A stretch of DNA of 64,000 nt, from NCBI GenBank assembly GCA_902529365.1, contig CABZWK010000001.1, forward strand, positions 124,001 through 188,000, in the 5' to 3' direction. The notes under the pieces were generated by a model. That model searched no databases and was not told the origin of the DNA. It saw only the letters and a list, made by a program, of their open reading frames with translations. Each line of letters begins with the position of its first letter. Position 1 is the stretch's first letter. A program made the translations under genes and the position numbers. The DNA comes from an uncultured Balneola sp. (GTDB lineage: Bacteria; Bacteroidota; Rhodothermia; Balneolales; Balneolaceae). Shown here in pieces: positions 11,140 through 21,057 of this stretch.

Positions 11140-12105
11140 ATGAAAAAAATCGTACTCTTGTATCCTTTGTTATACGTTCTAACGCTGTGTATAAATCTGC
11201 AGGAACTAAAGGCTAATCAATCGGATTCCTTACTATTTGTTGTACGAATAGATGACATACTTTCAAGGAATATGTCCATACTTCCCCGTTCCATTTTACC
11301 TTTACAAGATACATTAGCCAGCAGAGGGGCTAAAGCTACCTGCGGACTTATGCCGCATCGACTAATAGAAACAGCGAATGCGGATGGACAATTAGCAAAA
11401 GAAATTATTTTAAGTCATAACAAAGGCCATGAAATTTCCCAACATGGCCTTATACATATTTGCCAAATTTGTGGGCGAAGTAATCATGAAATGTATTGCT
11501 CCTATAACAAAAGAGCGCTTAGTTATGAACAACAGGAACAACTCATAAGTAAAGGCGTTCAAATAATGGAGGATTCCTTAGGTATTAAACCTACAAGCTT
11601 TATCCCTCCTGGTCATGTATATGACGCAACCACAAAAACAGTGTTAGCGGATCTAGGTTTTCCTGTAATTTCAACTGCTGGGACCATGGGGCGAAGCGGT
11701 GACTCCTTATTTGATGTCCCTATCAATTCCGAATACACTTGGGCATTGACCCGTCAAAATTATTCAGCAAATTTAACCAATGCGATTCAAGAAATTAAAC
11801 AAGTTCAACATATAACCGGTATCTATGTACTCATGATGCATGACCCTTTTATCCGTCTCGGATATGAAAATGGAATTACTCTAGAGTGGATGGGTGCTTT
11901 ATTAGATTCTTTGAATACCTACTATGGGAGCCGTATTCATTATAAAACATTGACAGAAGCTGCAAAAATATTCGATTCAGAATTAAGTACCAATAACACA
12001 AAAGAGACTAGTAATGCAGGGACTCAACCAACAGGAATCTCTCTATTACCAAACTATCCAAACCCATTTAACCCTACTACCAAAATTGGGTTTTATTTAC
12101 CATAA
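11140..12105 (+). CDS. Secreted NodB-like/DUF2334-type polysaccharide deacetylase with truncated T9SS tag
   Basis: A 321-residue protein with a signal peptide (about 1-26). The body looks like a NodB-fold deacetylase of the DUF2334 type: 'RIDDI' (early metal/catalytic Asp pair), 'HEISQHGLIH' (metal His) and 'FIPPGHVYD'. The end enters a type IX secretion tag, 'NYPNPFNPTTKIGFYLP', then stops at TAA 12103-12105 after only about 20 of the usual 75-85 tag residues. The rest of the tag is still readable downstream (next entry). The enzyme may therefore be exported to the periplasm but not anchored outside. The catalytic assignment is moderate; the interrupted tag is seen directly. Confidence 0.75.
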   Translation: MKKIVLLYPLLYVLTLCINLQELKANQSDSLLFVVRIDDILSRNMSILPRSILPLQDTLASRGAKATCGLMPHRLIETANADGQLAKEIILSHNKGHEISQHGLIHICQICGRSNHEMYCSYNKRALSYEQQEQLISKGVQIMEDSLGIKPTSFIPPGHVYDATTKTVLADLGFPVISTAGTMGRSGDSLFDVPINSEYTWALTRQNYSANLTNAIQEIKQVQHITGIYVLMMHDPFIRLGYENGITLEWMGALLDSLNTYYGSRIHYKTLTEAAKIFDSELSTNNTKETSNAGTQPTGISLLPNYPNPFNPTTKIGFYLP

Positions 12106-12515: not shown

Positions 12516-15500
12516 TTAGCTACACCCAGAGGTTGATCCACATGTAATACATTTCAAACACGTTCCGTTACGAACCATTGTCATGCTACCACACTCTACA
12601 CACGCATCTCCTGTATAGCCTAATTGCTTAGCCTTCTCGTAATCACTTTCGTTTCCTGATTTTGCAGCAGAAGCACTACTTATTGCAGTGGCTTCAGGAG
12701 CGGGACTGCTAACAGGAGCAACTGCAGCTACAGGCTCAGTTACCTGTGCAATGGTTTGAGCTAGTGCTTTTGGTTTGTTGGTATCGTAACTCGAATCTAA
12801 TCCTATGGCTTTTAAGTTTCGTATGTGAATATCATCCACAGGTACATGAGCCAGATCTTCGCGTCCCAGATAGGTTACAGCCAACTCCCGGAAAATATAA
12901 TCAATAACTGAGGTAGACATTTTCACGTGAGGATTCCCATTAACCATACCGCTTGGTTCAAACTTTGTGAATACGAAGGCATCTACAAATTCTTCGAGAG
13001 GCACACCGTGTTGGAGCCCCAAAGAAATAGAGATAGCAAAACAGTTTAATAGGCTACGGAAGGCAGCTCCTTCGCGATGCATATCAATGAAAATTTCACC
13101 TAGTTGTCCATTATTGTACTCACCGGTGCGAAGGTAGACACTCTGCCCACCTATTTTCACTTTTTGAGTGTAGCCCTCACGACGGAATGGAAGTCGTTGC
13201 CTACGAGCCACGTACTTGTGTATAATTCGCTCAGCTACCTCAACCACTTTACTTTGTGCTTCAGCAGTAGCCATATCAACAGTGTCTTGTACCTCATCCT
13301 CAATTTCTTCAAGTACATCAGCCATACTATTAAGCGGCTGGCTCAATTTAGAACCATCCCGGTAGAGTGCATTTGCCTTCAACATCATTTCCCATGACAT
13401 CATGTAAGCTTTTTTCATATCCTCAACAGTTGCCTCATTCGGCAAATTAATGGTCTTGGATATTGCTCCGGATAAGAACGGCTGTGCAGCAGCCATCATA
13501 CGGATGTGACCCTCGGCCGAAATATACCGGGTTCCAGTTCTTCCACATTTATTTGCACAGTCGAAAACGGCTAAATGCTCACCTTCCAAGTGAGGAGCCC
13601 CTTCTACCGTCATTGTTCCACAAACATAATCATTTGCATCCTGAATTTGCTCTCGGCTAAATCCCAGGTGACGTAACATATCAAAGGTGAAATCATTGAG
13701 GTGCTCATCGGTCAGTCCTAAAACATCTTTACAGAAATCTTCACCTAAAGTGAAGTAGTTGAACGCAAATTTGATATCAAAACTGCTTGGCAAGGCCGCC
13801 TGGATCGCGCTTAACTGATCCGCCCCAAAGCCTTTTTCAGCAAGACTTTCCGGGTTGATGTAAGGGCAGCCCTCTAAAGTGGCATAACCTTTGGCAAAAT
13901 TAATGATTTCTTTGGATTCTTTGTCAGTGTATCCCAAGGTCTCTAATGCCCGAGGCACACTCTGATTAATGATTTTGAAGTACCCGCCCCCTGCTAATTT
14001 TTTGAATTTTACCAAGGCAAAATCAGGCTCAATACCAGTGGTATCACAATCCATGACCAAACCAATGGTTCCTGTCGGTGCCAATACCGTTACTTGGGCA
14101 TTACGATACCCATGCTTCTCCCCTTTTTGAACAGCTGCATCGGCTGTTTCACGAGCTGCGCTTAACAGGTAGTCCGGACAAAAAGCCTCGTCAATACCCA
14201 AAGGAGTTACAGTGAGTCCTTCGTAGGCCTCGGCTGATTCATTGTAGGCAGCGCGGCGATGATTTCTCATAACTCGTAACATGTGTTCTTTGTTTCGCTC
14301 ATAACCTTCGAAAGTTCCTAACTCACCGGCTAATTCCGCTGAAGTCTCATAGGCCTTCATATGCATGATAGCGGTAATGGCACCTGCCGTAGCAACACCT
14401 TCTGGGCTGTCATAAGGAATACCCTGTACCATTAAGGCAGCACCGATATTCGCATAGCCTAACCCGAGAGTTCTAAACACATATGAAAGCTCTGCAATCT
14501 CCTTAGAAGGGAACTGAGCCATGAGTACTGAGATTTCAAGTACAGTAGTCCAAAATCGTGATGCAGATCGTATGGATTCTACATCAAAGGTTGTGCAGTT
14601 CTCGTCGGTGAAAAATTTCATGAGGTTGAGCGAAGCCAGGTTACATGCGGTATTGTCTAAAAACATGTATTCCGAACAAGGATTACTGGCTCGAATTTCC
14701 CCATCTTCTGGGCAGGTATGCCACTCATTTATCGTATCATGATATTGAGTACCCGGATCAGCACACGACCAAGCTGCGTAAGCTATCTGATCCCAAAGTT
14801 CTGTTGCCTTTAGCGTTTTACACGGCTCAGGTGCGCGTCCTTCCTTTTCGGCACGTTCTTTTTCAATTCGCCAGTGTAGATGCCAATCTTTGTCATCCAC
14901 TACTGCTTTCATGAACGAATTTGGTACACGTACAGAGTTGTTTGAATTTTGTCCTGATACGGTGTTGTATGCTTCGGAATTCCAGTCAGTATCGTAGGTA
15001 TCGAATTCTAAATCAGTGAATCCCTGGGCTGCAAGTTGAATTACACGTTCGATGTAATTTAAAGGAACCTGCTCTTTTTTAGCTTCTCTAATTGCCTGGG
15101 CTAGGGCCTTATTTTTGAGTGGATTTCGGCTCATCTCACCATTAAATGTACGCCCCTCTATTTCCACAGGTGTATGACACAGTCCAATAATTTTTTTCAG
15201 ATGCTTTTGAGATGTTTTAGATCCGGCTACCAAAGCTGCTACTTTTTGTTCTTCGACTACTTTCCAGTTAATGTAATTTTCAATGTCGGGGTGATCTAAG
15301 TCTAGAGTAACCATTTTAGCGGCACGTCGGGTGGTTCCACCAGACTTGATAGCGCCGGCAGCACGGTCACCAATTTTCAAGAAACTCATTAGTCCTGAAG
15401 AACGGCCACCACCACTGAGTGGCTCATCTTCACCACGTATGGAAGAGAAATTACTTCCAGTACCAGACCCATACTTAAATAGCCGCGCTTCACGAACCCA

Positions 15501-16154
15501 AAGATCCATAATGCCACCCTCATTTACCAAATCATCATCCACACTTTGAATGAAACATGCATGGGGTTGAGGGTGAGTGTAAGAATCTTTAGAGCGGGTG
15601 AGTTTTCCGGTTTTTGCATCTACATAGTAATGTCCTTGCGCTGGTCCGTTTACACCATATGCCCAGTGAAGTCCAGTATTAAACCATTGTGGACTATTAG
15701 GAGCAGCCATCTGTGTAGCCAACATGTAGGCAAGCTCGTCGTAAAAAACTTTTGCATCTGCTTCACTATCAAAATAATCATACTTCCATCCCCAATAAGT
15801 CCAACACCCTGCGAGGCGATTGAACACCTGACGACTGTCTACCTCATGAGTAAATCGCTCCTCTTCCGGTAAGTCTTTCATCGCTGCGGTATCTGCTACC
15901 GATCGTTGCAACCACGTGGGCACTCCTTTTTCAGCTATTTTCTTAAGAGCTACGGGAACTCCCGCTTTACGAAAGTATTTTTGAGCTATTATATCGGTTG
16001 CTACTTGCGACCAAGTGGATGGTACTTGTACATTTTCCATATGAAAAACTTTGGAACCATCAGGGTTCTTGATTTCAGAAGTTCGACTATCAAATTTTAG
16101 GGCATCAAATGGAGTTTCCCAAGTGTCTTTAGTATAGAAGCGATTAAATTTCAT
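12516..16154 (-). CDS. nrdJ: Vitamin B12-dependent (class II) ribonucleotide reductase
   Basis: Oxygen-indifferent enzyme that makes deoxyribonucleotides with adenosylcobalamin as radical source. The 1212-residue product contains the redox Cys in 'PHACFIQS' (Cys200), the catalytic N-C-E set in 'NPCSEY' (Asn491, Cys493, Glu495) and 'APTGTIG' in the barrel. The C-terminus has a long linker and a zinc-ribbon/redox tail with Cys pairs in 'CVECGSM' and 'CLKCITCGS'. This is the long NrdJ form typical of the FCB group. No class I RNR is seen in the window. Upstream at 16309-16511 lie DnaA-box sequences; no NrdR box or riboswitch was recognised directly before it. A terminator follows at 12427-12467. 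Confidence 0.97.
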
Positions 16155-16621: not shown

Positions 16622-18037
16622 TTATTTAATTAGTAACATTTTCGTAACACGCTGATAGCCATTAAATAATACATGGGTATAGTACACACCCGAAGGTAAC
16701 TTTTGAGCGTTAAAAGTCTGTGTATATCGTCCTTTTTGTTTCATGCCTTGCTCTAAAATGGCTACTTTTTGGCCTAACGAATTAAAAATTACTAATTCAA
16801 CAAATCCACTCTCAGGTATGGAATATTGTATCTGGGTTGTTGGGTTAAATGGATTAGGATAATTAGGGTATAATTCAACCTTGCTTGGGCCCCAATCATC
16901 TAATTGGTCAATCGCTGTGCTTTCTGATCCATAGATTGCTAAAAAACTTCCAGGTATAATACCCACACTAAATTCATCCAAATCCTGAAGGGTTTCGGTA
17001 TCAATCACCCTGACGGAGCCCGCACTCACATAGTCTTTGGCATCGGCTAAATAAATATCACCCCCTACACTCTCATAGTAAAATGAATAATATGAACCAG
17101 AAATAATGGATTCAGTGGCTAGTACTGCCTGGGTTAGATCAACCCGTTTGATTCCATCACTTTGTAGGTATAGGTGTTCATTATTGGGATCATATCCTAG
17201 ATGGATACCTGCTTGATTGAGCTCAAGCTCTTTTGTAACACTCCAGTGATGATCCTGAGTATTTCTTTCAATGCGAAAAAGACCTCCTGGCCGCTGGGTT
17301 CCTTCTACTAGATTCCATTGCTCGTCATAATCCCCAGCATAGCCGGTGCATACTACCCATAGATCACCATTCGAATCGATGGTTATTTGACCTGGGCCAG
17401 AGGCCACGACTAAGGTATCCACTACCGCCTGTTGGACCGGGTCAATTATCATAATGGTTGAATCTTGCCCAAACCCATAATTTCCCACAAAAACAGCTTC
17501 TTGATGATAGACCATAAATTCAGGGCCATCCCCCACCGATATTTTGGTAGAAAGTACCTCTTGAGTAGCTGGGTTTACCAAATGAATCAAATCTCCGTAT
17601 AGATCACTTATATAAGCTAACTCAGGGCTTAATAGAAGTAATTGCCTTGGGCTAGCCCCATCGGGAAGTGAAATAAGACCTTGCTGAGTGAAGGATTCCG
17701 AATCCATAATCACAATTTGTGCTGAATTGTTCATGACGGCAAAGACCTGACCCTCATTATAATGTACACTTTGAAGCACATCCCCTAAACCTATGCCGTT
17801 TGCACTCATAAACACCCCATCTTGTAGATTCTTTGTAACCGGATTGTACCGACTAATCGTGGCATTTGATGAACCAAAACCACCTTCATTACCAATGAGC
17901 ATGTATTCTAGAGTAGCGCCGGATTCAATAGTTGATGGTGTATTCATTTGTGCATTGACTACCTGTGAGGTCAAAAAGGCGTAAGCAAATAGGAAAAAAA
18001 CAAACAAGGGCCACTTGGCTCTGACAGAATATATCAT
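16622..18037 (-). CDS. T9SS-exported beta-propeller protein, probable BtuG-like vitamin B12-binding surface protein
   Basis: A 471-residue protein (from ATG 18037; the frame is open to an ATG at 18136). It has a signal peptide ('WPLFVFFLFAYAFLTSQVVNAQ'), then a YncE/DUF5074-like seven-bladed propeller with repeated 'I.V.D..T..V' blades, and a C-terminal T9SS tag starting 'YPNYPNPFNPTTQIQY' and ending 'VTKMLLIK'. I chose 18037 because the 33 residues before it come from a degenerate 10-bp DNA repeat and would put a charged stretch before the signal peptide. The gene lies right behind btuB under a cobalamin riboswitch; in Bacteroides the same place and fold belong to BtuG, a lipoprotein that captures B12. 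Here T9SS tagging would replace lipidation. The B12 role is inference from fold and context. Confidence 0.75.
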   Translation of the reverse strand: MIYSVRAKWPLFVFFLFAYAFLTSQVVNAQMNTPSTIESGATLEYMLIGNEGGFGSSNATISRYNPVTKNLQDGVFMSANGIGLGDVLQSVHYNEGQVFAVMNNSAQIVIMDSESFTQQGLISLPDGASPRQLLLLSPELAYISDLYGDLIHLVNPATQEVLSTKISVGDGPEFMVYHQEAVFVGNYGFGQDSTIMIIDPVQQAVVDTLVVASGPGQITIDSNGDLWVVCTGYAGDYDEQWNLVEGTQRPGGLFRIERNTQDHHWSVTKELELNQAGIHLGYDPNNEHLYLQSDGIKRVDLTQAVLATESIISGSYYSFYYESVGGDIYLADAKDYVSAGSVRVIDTETLQDLDEFSVGIIPGSFLAIYGSESTAIDQLDDWGPSKVELYPNYPNPFNPTTQIQYSIPESGFVELVIFNSLGQKVAILEQGMKQKGRYTQTFNAQKLPSGVYYTHVLFNGYQRVTKMLLIK

Positions 18038-18041
18038 TGGC

Positions 18042-18126
18042 TTTTGTCTGACTGTCTTATTCTGTTTAATTCGGCTTGATTCTGTTCGATTAGGATCTGT
18101 CTGATTCGGTTCGATTTGGCTTGATA
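18042..18126. repeat. Degenerate 10-bp tandem repeat between btuB and the BtuG-like gene
   Basis: About eight decamers with plus-strand consensus CKGYYTGATT run head to tail from 18042 to 18126, with one 5-bp interruption at 18092-18096 (for example CTGTCTTATT, CTGTTTAATT, CGGCTTGATT, CTGTTCGATT, CTGTCTGATT, CGGTTCGATT). They fill the spacer between the two genes. Ten bases is not a multiple of three, so the array would be read in all three phases if translated, which fits non-coding DNA better. Confidence 0.75.
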
Positions 18127-18178
18127 GTAAATTCATTAATCTTAGGTTTATGTTTTTTGGGTTTTCTAAAAGTGATAG

Positions 18179-20347
18179 TTATTGCACTACTAGTTCGTGA
18201 TGGGGTCTGCTCCCATGGTCCACACGATTTAATTGAATGCTTAGCATGAAATGCCGCCCCGGCATGGGGTAGTTGAGCACCTGCTCATAGGTTTCTGAAA
18301 AAATATTATTTAGTTCCACTCTCCATCGAAGTTGCCATAGAGGCTGTTTTGGAATGTTTCTACTGGTTTGTGTAGAACGGAACGAGACGTCCTCTGAGCC
18401 AGAAGATCGTAAACCCGACCAAAGAATATCTATACCAAAGGCCGCGTTCCATGTTGAATACGAAGAAAGAGGGTCAAATGGGCTAGAATGGTCAGCACTG
18501 CTGTAGCGCTCGGCTACATAGGAGTTAGATAGTATAAACTGTGCGGAATTATACCTGAGATGGGCATAATGTTTAAACTGCAACTGGGGGGTATAACGGA
18601 GTTGTTTGTTTAGTGCCGGATCATCTTCATAGCGTTCCTTGCCCATACGCGCAATCACCTGGTACACCCCACTTTTTACCAAACCGCTAAACCGAGTATG
18701 CTGAAATGCTAAGGCTATGTCTGATTCTAGCCCTTGAGCTGTGATTGCCTCTATATTTCTAGGCCTTGAGAGGCCTTGCTCATCCGGCAGCCAACGTATG
18801 CCGTTATTCACCTTATTCCAATAATAACTCATTTGAACATCGGTTCTGATCATTCCACCATTCCAACGTAGCGGGGTCTGAGCCCAATGCAGCCCTGCTT
18901 CGAGGGAATAAACCTGCTCACTTGTTAAATATGGGTTTCCTAAGTTTGGCCAATATAAATCATTGAAGGTAGGTATGACCGAACTTTTAGCTGAAAGAAA
19001 CCGAATTCCAAGAGCAGAACTTAGCTTTGAGTTCCAACCCAACTCTCCCGACCAATTCCACCCAAAATCATCATAAAAGGCTTGATGTACATCGGCCCGA
19101 AGAATACTTTTTACACCAAGCTCTTGCTGCAGTGAGTGCCTATGAGATAGTGACCATCGAGACCGAGTTCCGTTGTAGTCAGTGCTTTGCACACCTGTAG
19201 TTGACCACTCTACTGTACTTTGCAAAAAAGCACCTTCGCCTATTCTAGATTGGTGTTCCAACCTAAGAATACTACTCCAAATGTCACTCTCACTATCAAT
19301 GTCTTTGTCAGGATCTTGGAAATCGAGTGCCTGCCATTGACTAAAATGTTGCATTCTCCACTGATTCTTACTCCCCCAACGCAAGCCTTGCATCCAGCGT
19401 ATGAAATCATCTTCTTGACTCGCCCTAGCCGTAGGCGATAGCTTGCTTCCGGGTATGTTGTTGTTCTGGGTAAAAGCCCAAACGGTACTTTGATATTCAC
19501 TATTGGTTATAAAAGTTCGGAAAAATGAGTTTGTTTTAGCTGAAGCCTTATCCCGAGAAGATTCTAGGATAGCAGCATCGGATTTCTTTTTAAAATTGAA
19601 CATGACCGAGTGGGATTGGCTTTCGTTATTCGCACGGCTAAACCACTTGGGCACGACTGCTCGCTGATCTGGATCAAATACTCTTTTTTTATAGCCAAAA
19701 TTATTTTCGGCTGTTTTGCTGTACAGCCGTAGATCCCAAGACCTCCCATTCTTTGAAGATGTCGCATGTATAGTAGACTGCTTTGCCCCATAACTGCCAA
19801 TTGACTGCTGAATAGCTATTTTATCGGCATCAAATGATTGTTGGAGAATGTGCATCGACCCCGCACCACTCTGTCCAAATCGAGCTTGGCCTAAGCCAGG
19901 AGTGAACAAAACCGCGTCAAATAAATTACTGGGAATTAAGGATAAATCGACTACACCTAACATTGGATGATTTAACCCGAAACCATTCCAAACTACTTGA
20001 GTTCTAGAAGCTGGCAACCCTCTTTGTGAAAGTAATGCTAAGCTTCCAGGCCCGTTGGATTGCACATAAGCGGAGCTAAATTCTTGTGCAATACTACCCA
20101 TATGCGATGCTAATCTGAGTTCTAAAATTTCTTTTGTTAATCGCCCATACTGAGTACTAAGTAAAAAGAAGTCTTGATATGGTTTCTCGGCTATAATTTC
20201 TATTTCGGCAAGGCCAATGGTGGGTAGAATTGCCAAGGTATCATTAGTTTCTCTCTGGAACTCATGCGCAGTTGCATGTCCGCTGGAATTGAACGTACTC
20301 TGAATGAGAAGGCATGCAAACCAAATGTAATAGTAATATCCTCTCAT
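18179..20347 (-). CDS. btuB: TonB-dependent receptor, BtuB-type (vitamin B12/corrinoid uptake)
   Basis: Outer-membrane active transporter of 722 residues from the ATG at 20347. A signal peptide ('GYYYYIWFACLLIQ...') is followed by a plug domain with 'LRLASHMGSIAQEF', 'LALLSQRGLPASRTQVVWNG' and 'FGQSGAGSMHIL', then a long beta-barrel of alternating aromatic strands ending with 'PMPGRHFMLSIQL'. The frame is open to an ATG at 20542, but the extra 65 residues would precede the signal peptide and lie in the riboswitch leader, so 20347 is preferred. A cobalamin riboswitch 335 bp upstream gives the substrate. The BtuG-like propeller follows as second gene of the operon. Confidence 0.9.
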   Translation of the reverse strand: MRGYYYYIWFACLLIQSTFNSSGHATAHEFQRETNDTLAILPTIGLAEIEIIAEKPYQDFFLLSTQYGRLTKEILELRLASHMGSIAQEFSSAYVQSNGPGSLALLSQRGLPASRTQVVWNGFGLNHPMLGVVDLSLIPSNLFDAVLFTPGLGQARFGQSGAGSMHILQQSFDADKIAIQQSIGSYGAKQSTIHATSSKNGRSWDLRLYSKTAENNFGYKKRVFDPDQRAVVPKWFSRANNESQSHSVMFNFKKKSDAAILESSRDKASAKTNSFFRTFITNSEYQSTVWAFTQNNNIPGSKLSPTARASQEDDFIRWMQGLRWGSKNQWRMQHFSQWQALDFQDPDKDIDSESDIWSSILRLEHQSRIGEGAFLQSTVEWSTTGVQSTDYNGTRSRWSLSHRHSLQQELGVKSILRADVHQAFYDDFGWNWSGELGWNSKLSSALGIRFLSAKSSVIPTFNDLYWPNLGNPYLTSEQVYSLEAGLHWAQTPLRWNGGMIRTDVQMSYYWNKVNNGIRWLPDEQGLSRPRNIEAITAQGLESDIALAFQHTRFSGLVKSGVYQVIARMGKERYEDDPALNKQLRYTPQLQFKHYAHLRYNSAQFILSNSYVAERYSSADHSSPFDPLSSYSTWNAAFGIDILWSGLRSSGSEDVSFRSTQTSRNIPKQPLWQLRWRVELNNIFSETYEQVLNYPMPGRHFMLSIQLNRVDHGSRPHHELVVQ

Positions 20348-20681
20348 AGCTTTGTAAACTGATTGAACATCTGCAAGGCTTTGACTCAGATTTTCAGTAA
20401 GACGATTGGTTATAGGATCAGTGCCACCTGTATTATAACTAGTAAATCGACCATGTAACAAATCAGTAATACGTCTAATATATAGACGTTTTACTGCAAT
20501 TAGACCAATCCAACTAAACAAACGTAAAAAACTACCCATCATATGGTGTTCACAACCAGATGCACAGTATTCGTGTGACGTCTACTTGTGTGTTAATAAA
20601 AGTGTGTTATAAAAACGAGTTTATTATAGCTTACGGAAATTCTAGCTCCCGAAAATTTCCTGAGAAATAGATGCTGAATGC

Positions 20682-20880
20682 GTTGATGGCAGGTCTCCTG
20701 ACTTTTCCACCTAGAGGCCTTCCCGTTAGCTAACTAACAGTGGCAAGATTTGCTCGTAGGTTTAATATGAACTATTCATTAGGATAACGAATACGTTCAA
20801 ATGGAATTACAGTTGCGGGTACAGCTCCGGATTTACACCGGATTCCCTTTTCATCTCATTTAAGAGAACCATCACTATTT
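20682..20880 (-). ncRNA. Cobalamin riboswitch controlling the btuB operon
   Basis: Read on the minus strand this contains the hallmark elements in the correct order: the 5' arm with GGGAATCCGGTG and ATCCGGAGCTGTACCCGC (20819-20848), GCCACTG (20738-20744), GGGAAGGC (20717-20724), and the 3' AGTCAGGAGACCTGCC (20688-20703). A P1 stem forms between TGATGG (about 20869-20874) and CCATCA (20683-20688). About 20 bases after it a perfect 7-bp stem GGAAATT/AATTTCC (20635-20660) may be the expression platform. Known members switch off btuB expression when adenosylcobalamin is plentiful. The target is the receptor at 18179-20347. Confidence 0.95.
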
Positions 20881-21057
20881 CAAAAAGTGCAAACAATATA
20901 ATCGCTCAACGAATTAATCCAAAATTTTTATCATAAATAAATATTAAAGTTTATACTCTAGGATCCCAATTTAGGATAAGTTGTACACAGCAAGTCCCTA
21001 GGATGTATTTACACGTATCCATTCGTCTTACTCTCTTGAACTATACCTGTTCGTTAT

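Follow-up and report, generated by a model that had tools for sequence, protein, structure and literature searches.

How would a predicted B12-capturing protein be delivered to its receptor at the cell surface when it carries no lipid anchor? BtuG has been studied in gut Bacteroides. Its homologues were described by Wexler et al. 2018 (PMC6143338) as surface lipoproteins, none of which was detected outside the Bacteroidetes in 313 gut strains, and the lid that BtuG forms on BtuB has been described by Abellon-Ruiz et al. 2023 (PMC10404256). According to the sequence-only reading of this DNA, a BtuG exported by the type IX secretion system (T9SS) is not known to have been described. In the literature searched (subscription papers and preprints aside) this holds, since no paper links BtuG with T9SS export and the sole co-mention of the two, PMC12578637, is unrelated. 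The lipid-anchored BtuG is thus known already, and what appears to be new is a BtuG with a T9SS tail in place of the anchor, its export being predicted from the sequence.

Organisation of the locus

On the minus strand of the window (the whole 64-kb stretch that was analysed), the riboswitch is followed by btuB, a 42-nt gap and the btuG-like gene; nrdJ lies downstream on the same strand, beyond an AT-rich gap of about 467 nt. Promoter-like and terminator-like sites at the locus were no more informative than in shuffles, and nrdJ probably lies outside the btuB-btuG transcript. The features are as follows:

20671-20888, minus strand: full-length cobalamin riboswitch aptamer, RF00174 (cmscan 100.6 bits, gathering score 31.5)
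18179-20542, minus strand: open reading frame of btuB, predicted TonB-dependent B12 receptor of the BtuG-partner type (Pfam Plug and TonB-B12, phmmer, fold)
16622-18136, minus strand: open reading frame of the btuG-like gene with T9SS tail, 504 aa (alternative start ATG 18037)
17951-18037, minus strand: signal peptide of the BtuG-like protein, residues 34-62, no lipobox Cys (read from the sequence)
16925-17917, minus strand: BtuG-type beta-propeller, residues about 74-404 (phmmer over 73-398, AlphaFold, Foldseek)
17857-17890, minus strand: NEGGFGSSNAT, residues 83-93, equivalent of the B12-gripping loop Asn54-Thr64 of BtuG2 (alignment map)
16868-16924, minus strand: linker from the last blade to the sorting domain, residues about 405-423 (low-confidence model segment, linker comparison)
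16625-16861, minus strand: T9SS type-A C-terminal sorting domain, match over residues 426-500 (PF18962, TIGR04183)
12516-16154, minus strand: nrdJ, B12-dependent ribonucleotide reductase (PF08471, E 5e-45; PF02867)

The riboswitch had been called complete, and the match indeed covers model positions 1-189 of 189 (E 5.6e-24); its end, placed at 20880 in that reading, lies at 20888. It is the only cobalamin riboswitch detected in the host assembly.

The receptor is predicted to be a BtuB of the BtuG-partner type

The open reading frame after the riboswitch had been read as a TonB receptor, in agreement with its Plug domain and with TonB-B12 as its best named family; its likely true start is ATG 20347, directly before the signal peptide. 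When the receptor was compared with PDB sequences (phmmer, 1e-3), the sole matches were BtuB3 and BtuB2 from BtuB-BtuG complexes, and the six best fold matches of the receptor model were BtuB3, BtuB2 and BtuB1 of these complexes, followed by E. coli BtuB. Sequence and model therefore both point to a TonB plug and barrel closest to the BtuB of BtuBG complexes, that is, to a BtuG-partner type BtuB. The three B. thetaiotaomicron receptors, BtuB1-3, are the closest receptor structures by sequence and fold and likewise have a BtuG gene adjacent, although they share 17-20% identity with the window receptor in structural alignment and the lid partner is anchored differently in the window. A TonB receptor for another substrate was considered and rejected.

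In other Balneolales (loci L288, L289, L291-L294, L296 and L303), a riboswitch precedes a BtuB-like receptor that is more distant in sequence and lacks a neighbouring BtuG; such receptors reach profile scores of about 100-150, not 700 or more. The order seems to hold two receptor types, with and without a BtuG lid.

The propeller is a predicted BtuG homologue

The neighbouring gene had been described as a secreted DUF5074-like propeller, and both the DUF5074 match (E 5.8e-13, Pfam) and a readable signal peptide bear this out. Among all PDB sequences (phmmer), BtuG3 and BtuG2 matched over residues 73-398 at 3e-33 to 6e-30, BtuG1 followed at about 1e-8, and the next was an archaeal surface-layer propeller at 1e-6. 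Structure prediction and comparison with BtuG, proposed as a check in the sequence-only reading, gave a BtuG-like fold: the AlphaFold model (mean pLDDT 89) consists of a propeller and a separate C-terminal beta domain, with a low-confidence linker at model residues 373-384, and in a Foldseek search of 350,542 PDB chains the best 16 were all BtuG structures (E 8e-28 to 5e-19), ahead of other propellers, with a TM to target of 0.83-0.88 for BtuG2/BtuG3. All three methods agree on a seven-bladed BtuG-type propeller, and the gene lies, as in the BtuG family, next to btuB under a cobalamin riboswitch. A plain YncE-like protein was considered and rejected.

The putative pocket was mapped with the residue numbers named in the BtuG2 paper (PMC10404256), which names part of the contact residues only; one constant offset from BtuG2 numbering to the BtuG3 chain reproduces Trp194, Asp236, Tyr239, Pro249, Lys266, Ser274, Tyr316 and Tyr335. 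The gripping loop is identical to that of BtuG2 at 7 of 11 positions, the tyrosines 239, 316 and 335 correspond to Tyr266, Tyr350 and Tyr369, and Trp194 corresponds to Tyr220. Throughout the order the loop core hardly varies, whether the protein is tailed or a lipoprotein; the positions of Trp194 and Tyr239 vary among relatives, again in both forms. We infer that the window propeller is a BtuG homologue and a predicted corrinoid binder in which the BtuG2 gripping loop is largely kept.

BtuG2 and BtuG3 of Bacteroides thetaiotaomicron (BT1954, BT2095; PMC6143338, PMC10404256) have in common with the window protein the propeller fold, the DUF5074-type sequence, the gripping loop, the btuB neighbour and the corrinoid riboswitch, at about 28% identity in the propeller. 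BtuG1, a lipoprotein propeller fused to a BtuH domain, also combines a BtuG propeller with an extra C-terminal domain; however, BtuG1 has a lipid anchor and uses its additional domain to bind B12, whereas the extra domain of the window protein appears to be a secretion tail.

A sorting domain in place of the lipobox

Read by eye from ATG 18037, the signal peptide is MIYSVRAKWPLFVFFLFAYAFLTSQVVNA|Q, ending VNA|Q. The sole Cys of the protein is residue 263 and none stands ahead of it, therefore there is no lipobox. BtuG2, in contrast, is a surface lipoprotein with Cys32, a lipobox and an export signal; neither the lipobox Cys nor the lipoprotein export signal was found in the window protein, which we accordingly file as a BtuG homologue and not as a lipoprotein BtuG. 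Instead, it ends in a sorting domain scoring 36.1 bits for PF18962 (Por_Secre_tail; cut-off 27) and 33.1 bits for TIGR04183 (cut-off 23), so that the lack of a lipobox Cys and the complete T9SS domain that had been read from the letters are both upheld. With its signal peptide, seen by eye, and a tail over cut-off, the protein has the two marks of a T9SS type-A cargo, and the machinery is encoded in the same genome: SprA (1492.5 bits) and a PorU-type T9SS sortase (1026.8 bits, cut-off 420).

Elsewhere in the window, at 11140-12105 on the plus strand, a DUF2334/polysaccharide-deacetylase-like secreted protein has its T9SS tail cut by a stop, and the rest of the tail continues in another frame, which indicates a broken gene or an assembly error.

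Lipid anchor and tail are mutually exclusive within Balneolales

We surveyed 129 Balneolales genomes, of which 55 carry one BtuG each. The tail is present in 29/55 and a lipobox without a tail in 26/55, and no BtuG has both. An intact N-terminus is available for 28 of the 29 tailed proteins, and none of the 28 has a lipobox; four of the lipoproteins (NLAC, LFSC, FNAC, FFSC) fall outside the strict lipobox pattern and were classed by eye. In an independent check, Pfam found Por_Secre_tail in 28 and DUF5074 in 53 of 54 aligned BtuGs. Lipid anchor and T9SS tail are thus mutually exclusive in this order. SprA was found in 128/129 genomes, and T9SS presence therefore does not explain the choice of anchor. 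Carriers of the tailed form include Gracilimonas mengyeensis DSM 21985 and Balneolales PBR18_bin03A, both named by a collection scan in which most matches were to the sorting domain only, in unrelated cargo.

The sequence-only reading had also asked for co-occurrence of the gene with a riboswitch and btuB. This was observed: wherever the contig extends far enough (53 loci, namely 52 relatives and the window), btuB is the gene immediately upstream on the same strand, and in at least 50 of the 52 relatives it is itself preceded by a B12 box or riboswitch (46 by motif, four more by Rfam coordinates). Taking into consideration that: (i) essentially all relatives share the riboswitch and the adjacency of btuB and btuG, and (ii) the tail is conserved across whole clades; the arrangement is not due to chance.

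The anchor was swapped more than once

When 392 genomes of the phylum (GTDB sense) were searched with a profile, 292 had matches, some of which covered nothing but the sorting domain. Sixty further BtuG loci outside the order were read in detail: the main BtuG is tailed in 13, with L148, L149 and L158 counted as such from plain reading of their tails, and the rest have a lipobox by pattern or by eye. In each of the 13 tailed loci btuB and a riboswitch stand immediately before the gene. Mapped on a propeller tree of 118 rows, the anchor state requires five changes, of which at least two are imposed by well-supported branches; shuffled states give a mean of 36. The placement of L159 and of the f43 group, on branches that are long or poorly supported, calls for caution. 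The AU test did not reject one common origin of the tailed forms within Balneolales (p 0.326), and for this reason our firm claim is of at least two swaps overall and not of two gains inside the order.

At four loci outside the order (L180:1163-3651, L182:4429-7287, L188:4735-7629 and L189:5079-7490), a lipid-anchored BtuG is immediately followed by a second, more divergent T9SS-tailed propeller, so that two differently anchored B12 catchers may be neighbours there.

Moving the tether from one end to the other

In the lipoprotein forms the first strand begins some 15-20 residues after the lipid Cys. Most tailed forms have only a few residues before the first strand and instead a linker of 16-18 residues from the last blade to the sorting domain; the window's own genus has a longer N-terminal stretch. 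The N-terminal linker is the lid hinge in B. thetaiotaomicron (PMC10404256). As its equivalent is short or different in tailed forms, the docking geometry may differ. In a closed propeller the chain ends usually lie in the same blade, so that a tether at the C-terminus may hold the lid over BtuB in roughly the position given by one at the N-terminus.

Demand of the host for B12

In the 86%-complete host assembly the only ribonucleotide reductase detected is the B12-dependent NrdJ adjoining the operon, likely a consumer of imported B12. MetH is present as two adjacent reading frames of 332 and 924 aa (G000:C2:124268-127839, host assembly), and CobB was not found in this 86%-complete assembly. 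Because the sole reductase found is NrdJ, MetH is present and no CobB was found, the host probably depends on imported B12. The same 86% of the genome yielded no FecCD (BtuC-type) permease, and the inner-membrane importer is therefore either not of the BtuC type or encoded in the missing part.

At five other loci (L290, L295, L297, L299 and L300), a cobalamin riboswitch precedes what appear, by eye, to be genes for class I, B12-independent ribonucleotide reductases.

A model for the operon and its alternatives

Two of the outcomes named as refuting the sequence-only reading, a fold without the propeller and homologues never beside btuB, did not occur, and every computational check that was run supports its interpretation; that the swap recurs in several clades and that the two anchors exclude each other goes beyond it. 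We consider it probable that this is an operon for B12 uptake with an anchor-swapped BtuG, in which the T9SS tail replaces the lipid anchor. At low cellular B12 the riboswitch would permit expression of btuB and btuG. The propeller protein would exit by Sec and then by the type IX system via its C-terminal sorting domain, from which the PorU-type sortase would probably cut the propeller. Docking on BtuB, a link between its new C-terminus and surface polysaccharide, or both, would retain it on the cell surface, and there it would grip corrinoids and sit as a lid on the neighbouring BtuB, which would import the ligand with TonB. B12 binding, lid docking, export, processing and retention are predicted steps of this model. 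The Tyr in place of Trp194, the variation of some pocket positions among relatives and the altered N-terminal linker weigh against it. HBP35 of Porphyromonas gingivalis, a surface protein that binds the nutrient haem, likewise reaches the surface through the type IX system; it has another fold and ligand and does not stand in a riboswitch-TonB receptor operon.

T9SS cargo is sometimes released and not retained. The propeller could then diffuse after export and tail removal, bind B12 away from the cell and return it to BtuB, as haemophores do for haem, an outcome that would suit a protein with a T9SS route and no lipid anchor; the pairing of a lipid-anchored BtuG with a second, tailed propeller at L180, L182, L188 and L189 would fit such a division of labour. 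We find this rather unlikely for the window protein, since a receptor lid agrees better with a gene that is single-copy and tied to btuB in every genome, and a sortase able to attach cargo is present. If true, the released form would be a bacterial corrinophore, and the swap would have turned a receptor lid into a mobile, possibly shared scavenger.

A generic YncE/DUF5074-type propeller that acts as a scaffold or adhesin in a B12 operon, and binds no B12, is very improbable: the looseness of the DUF5074 family and the variation of some pocket aromatics between relatives speak for it, but a clear gap in sequence and fold separates BtuG from other propellers, the blade-1 gripping loop is nearly invariant across the order, and the linkage to riboswitch and btuB is conserved. 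Scarcely credible is a tail that arose as a by-product, by chance fusion in a genome where sorting domains are abundant, and left the protein periplasmic with no T9SS export, given that the tail is kept in whole clades with an almost constant linker of 16-18 residues and is present exactly where the lipobox is missing. A vestigial tail was likewise considered and rejected.

Implications

With the anchor-swapped lid as the preferred reading, Balneolales and other lineages apparently use a different secretion system to deliver a receptor lid of the same family. As a natural experiment, the swap bears on the need of the BtuB lid for an N-terminal lipid hinge and on how T9SS cargo can work with a TonB transporter. 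BtuG-type B12 capture would extend well beyond the gut and include some free-living relatives of gut Bacteroides; as the cultured G. mengyeensis DSM 21985 carries the tailed form, the idea is directly testable.
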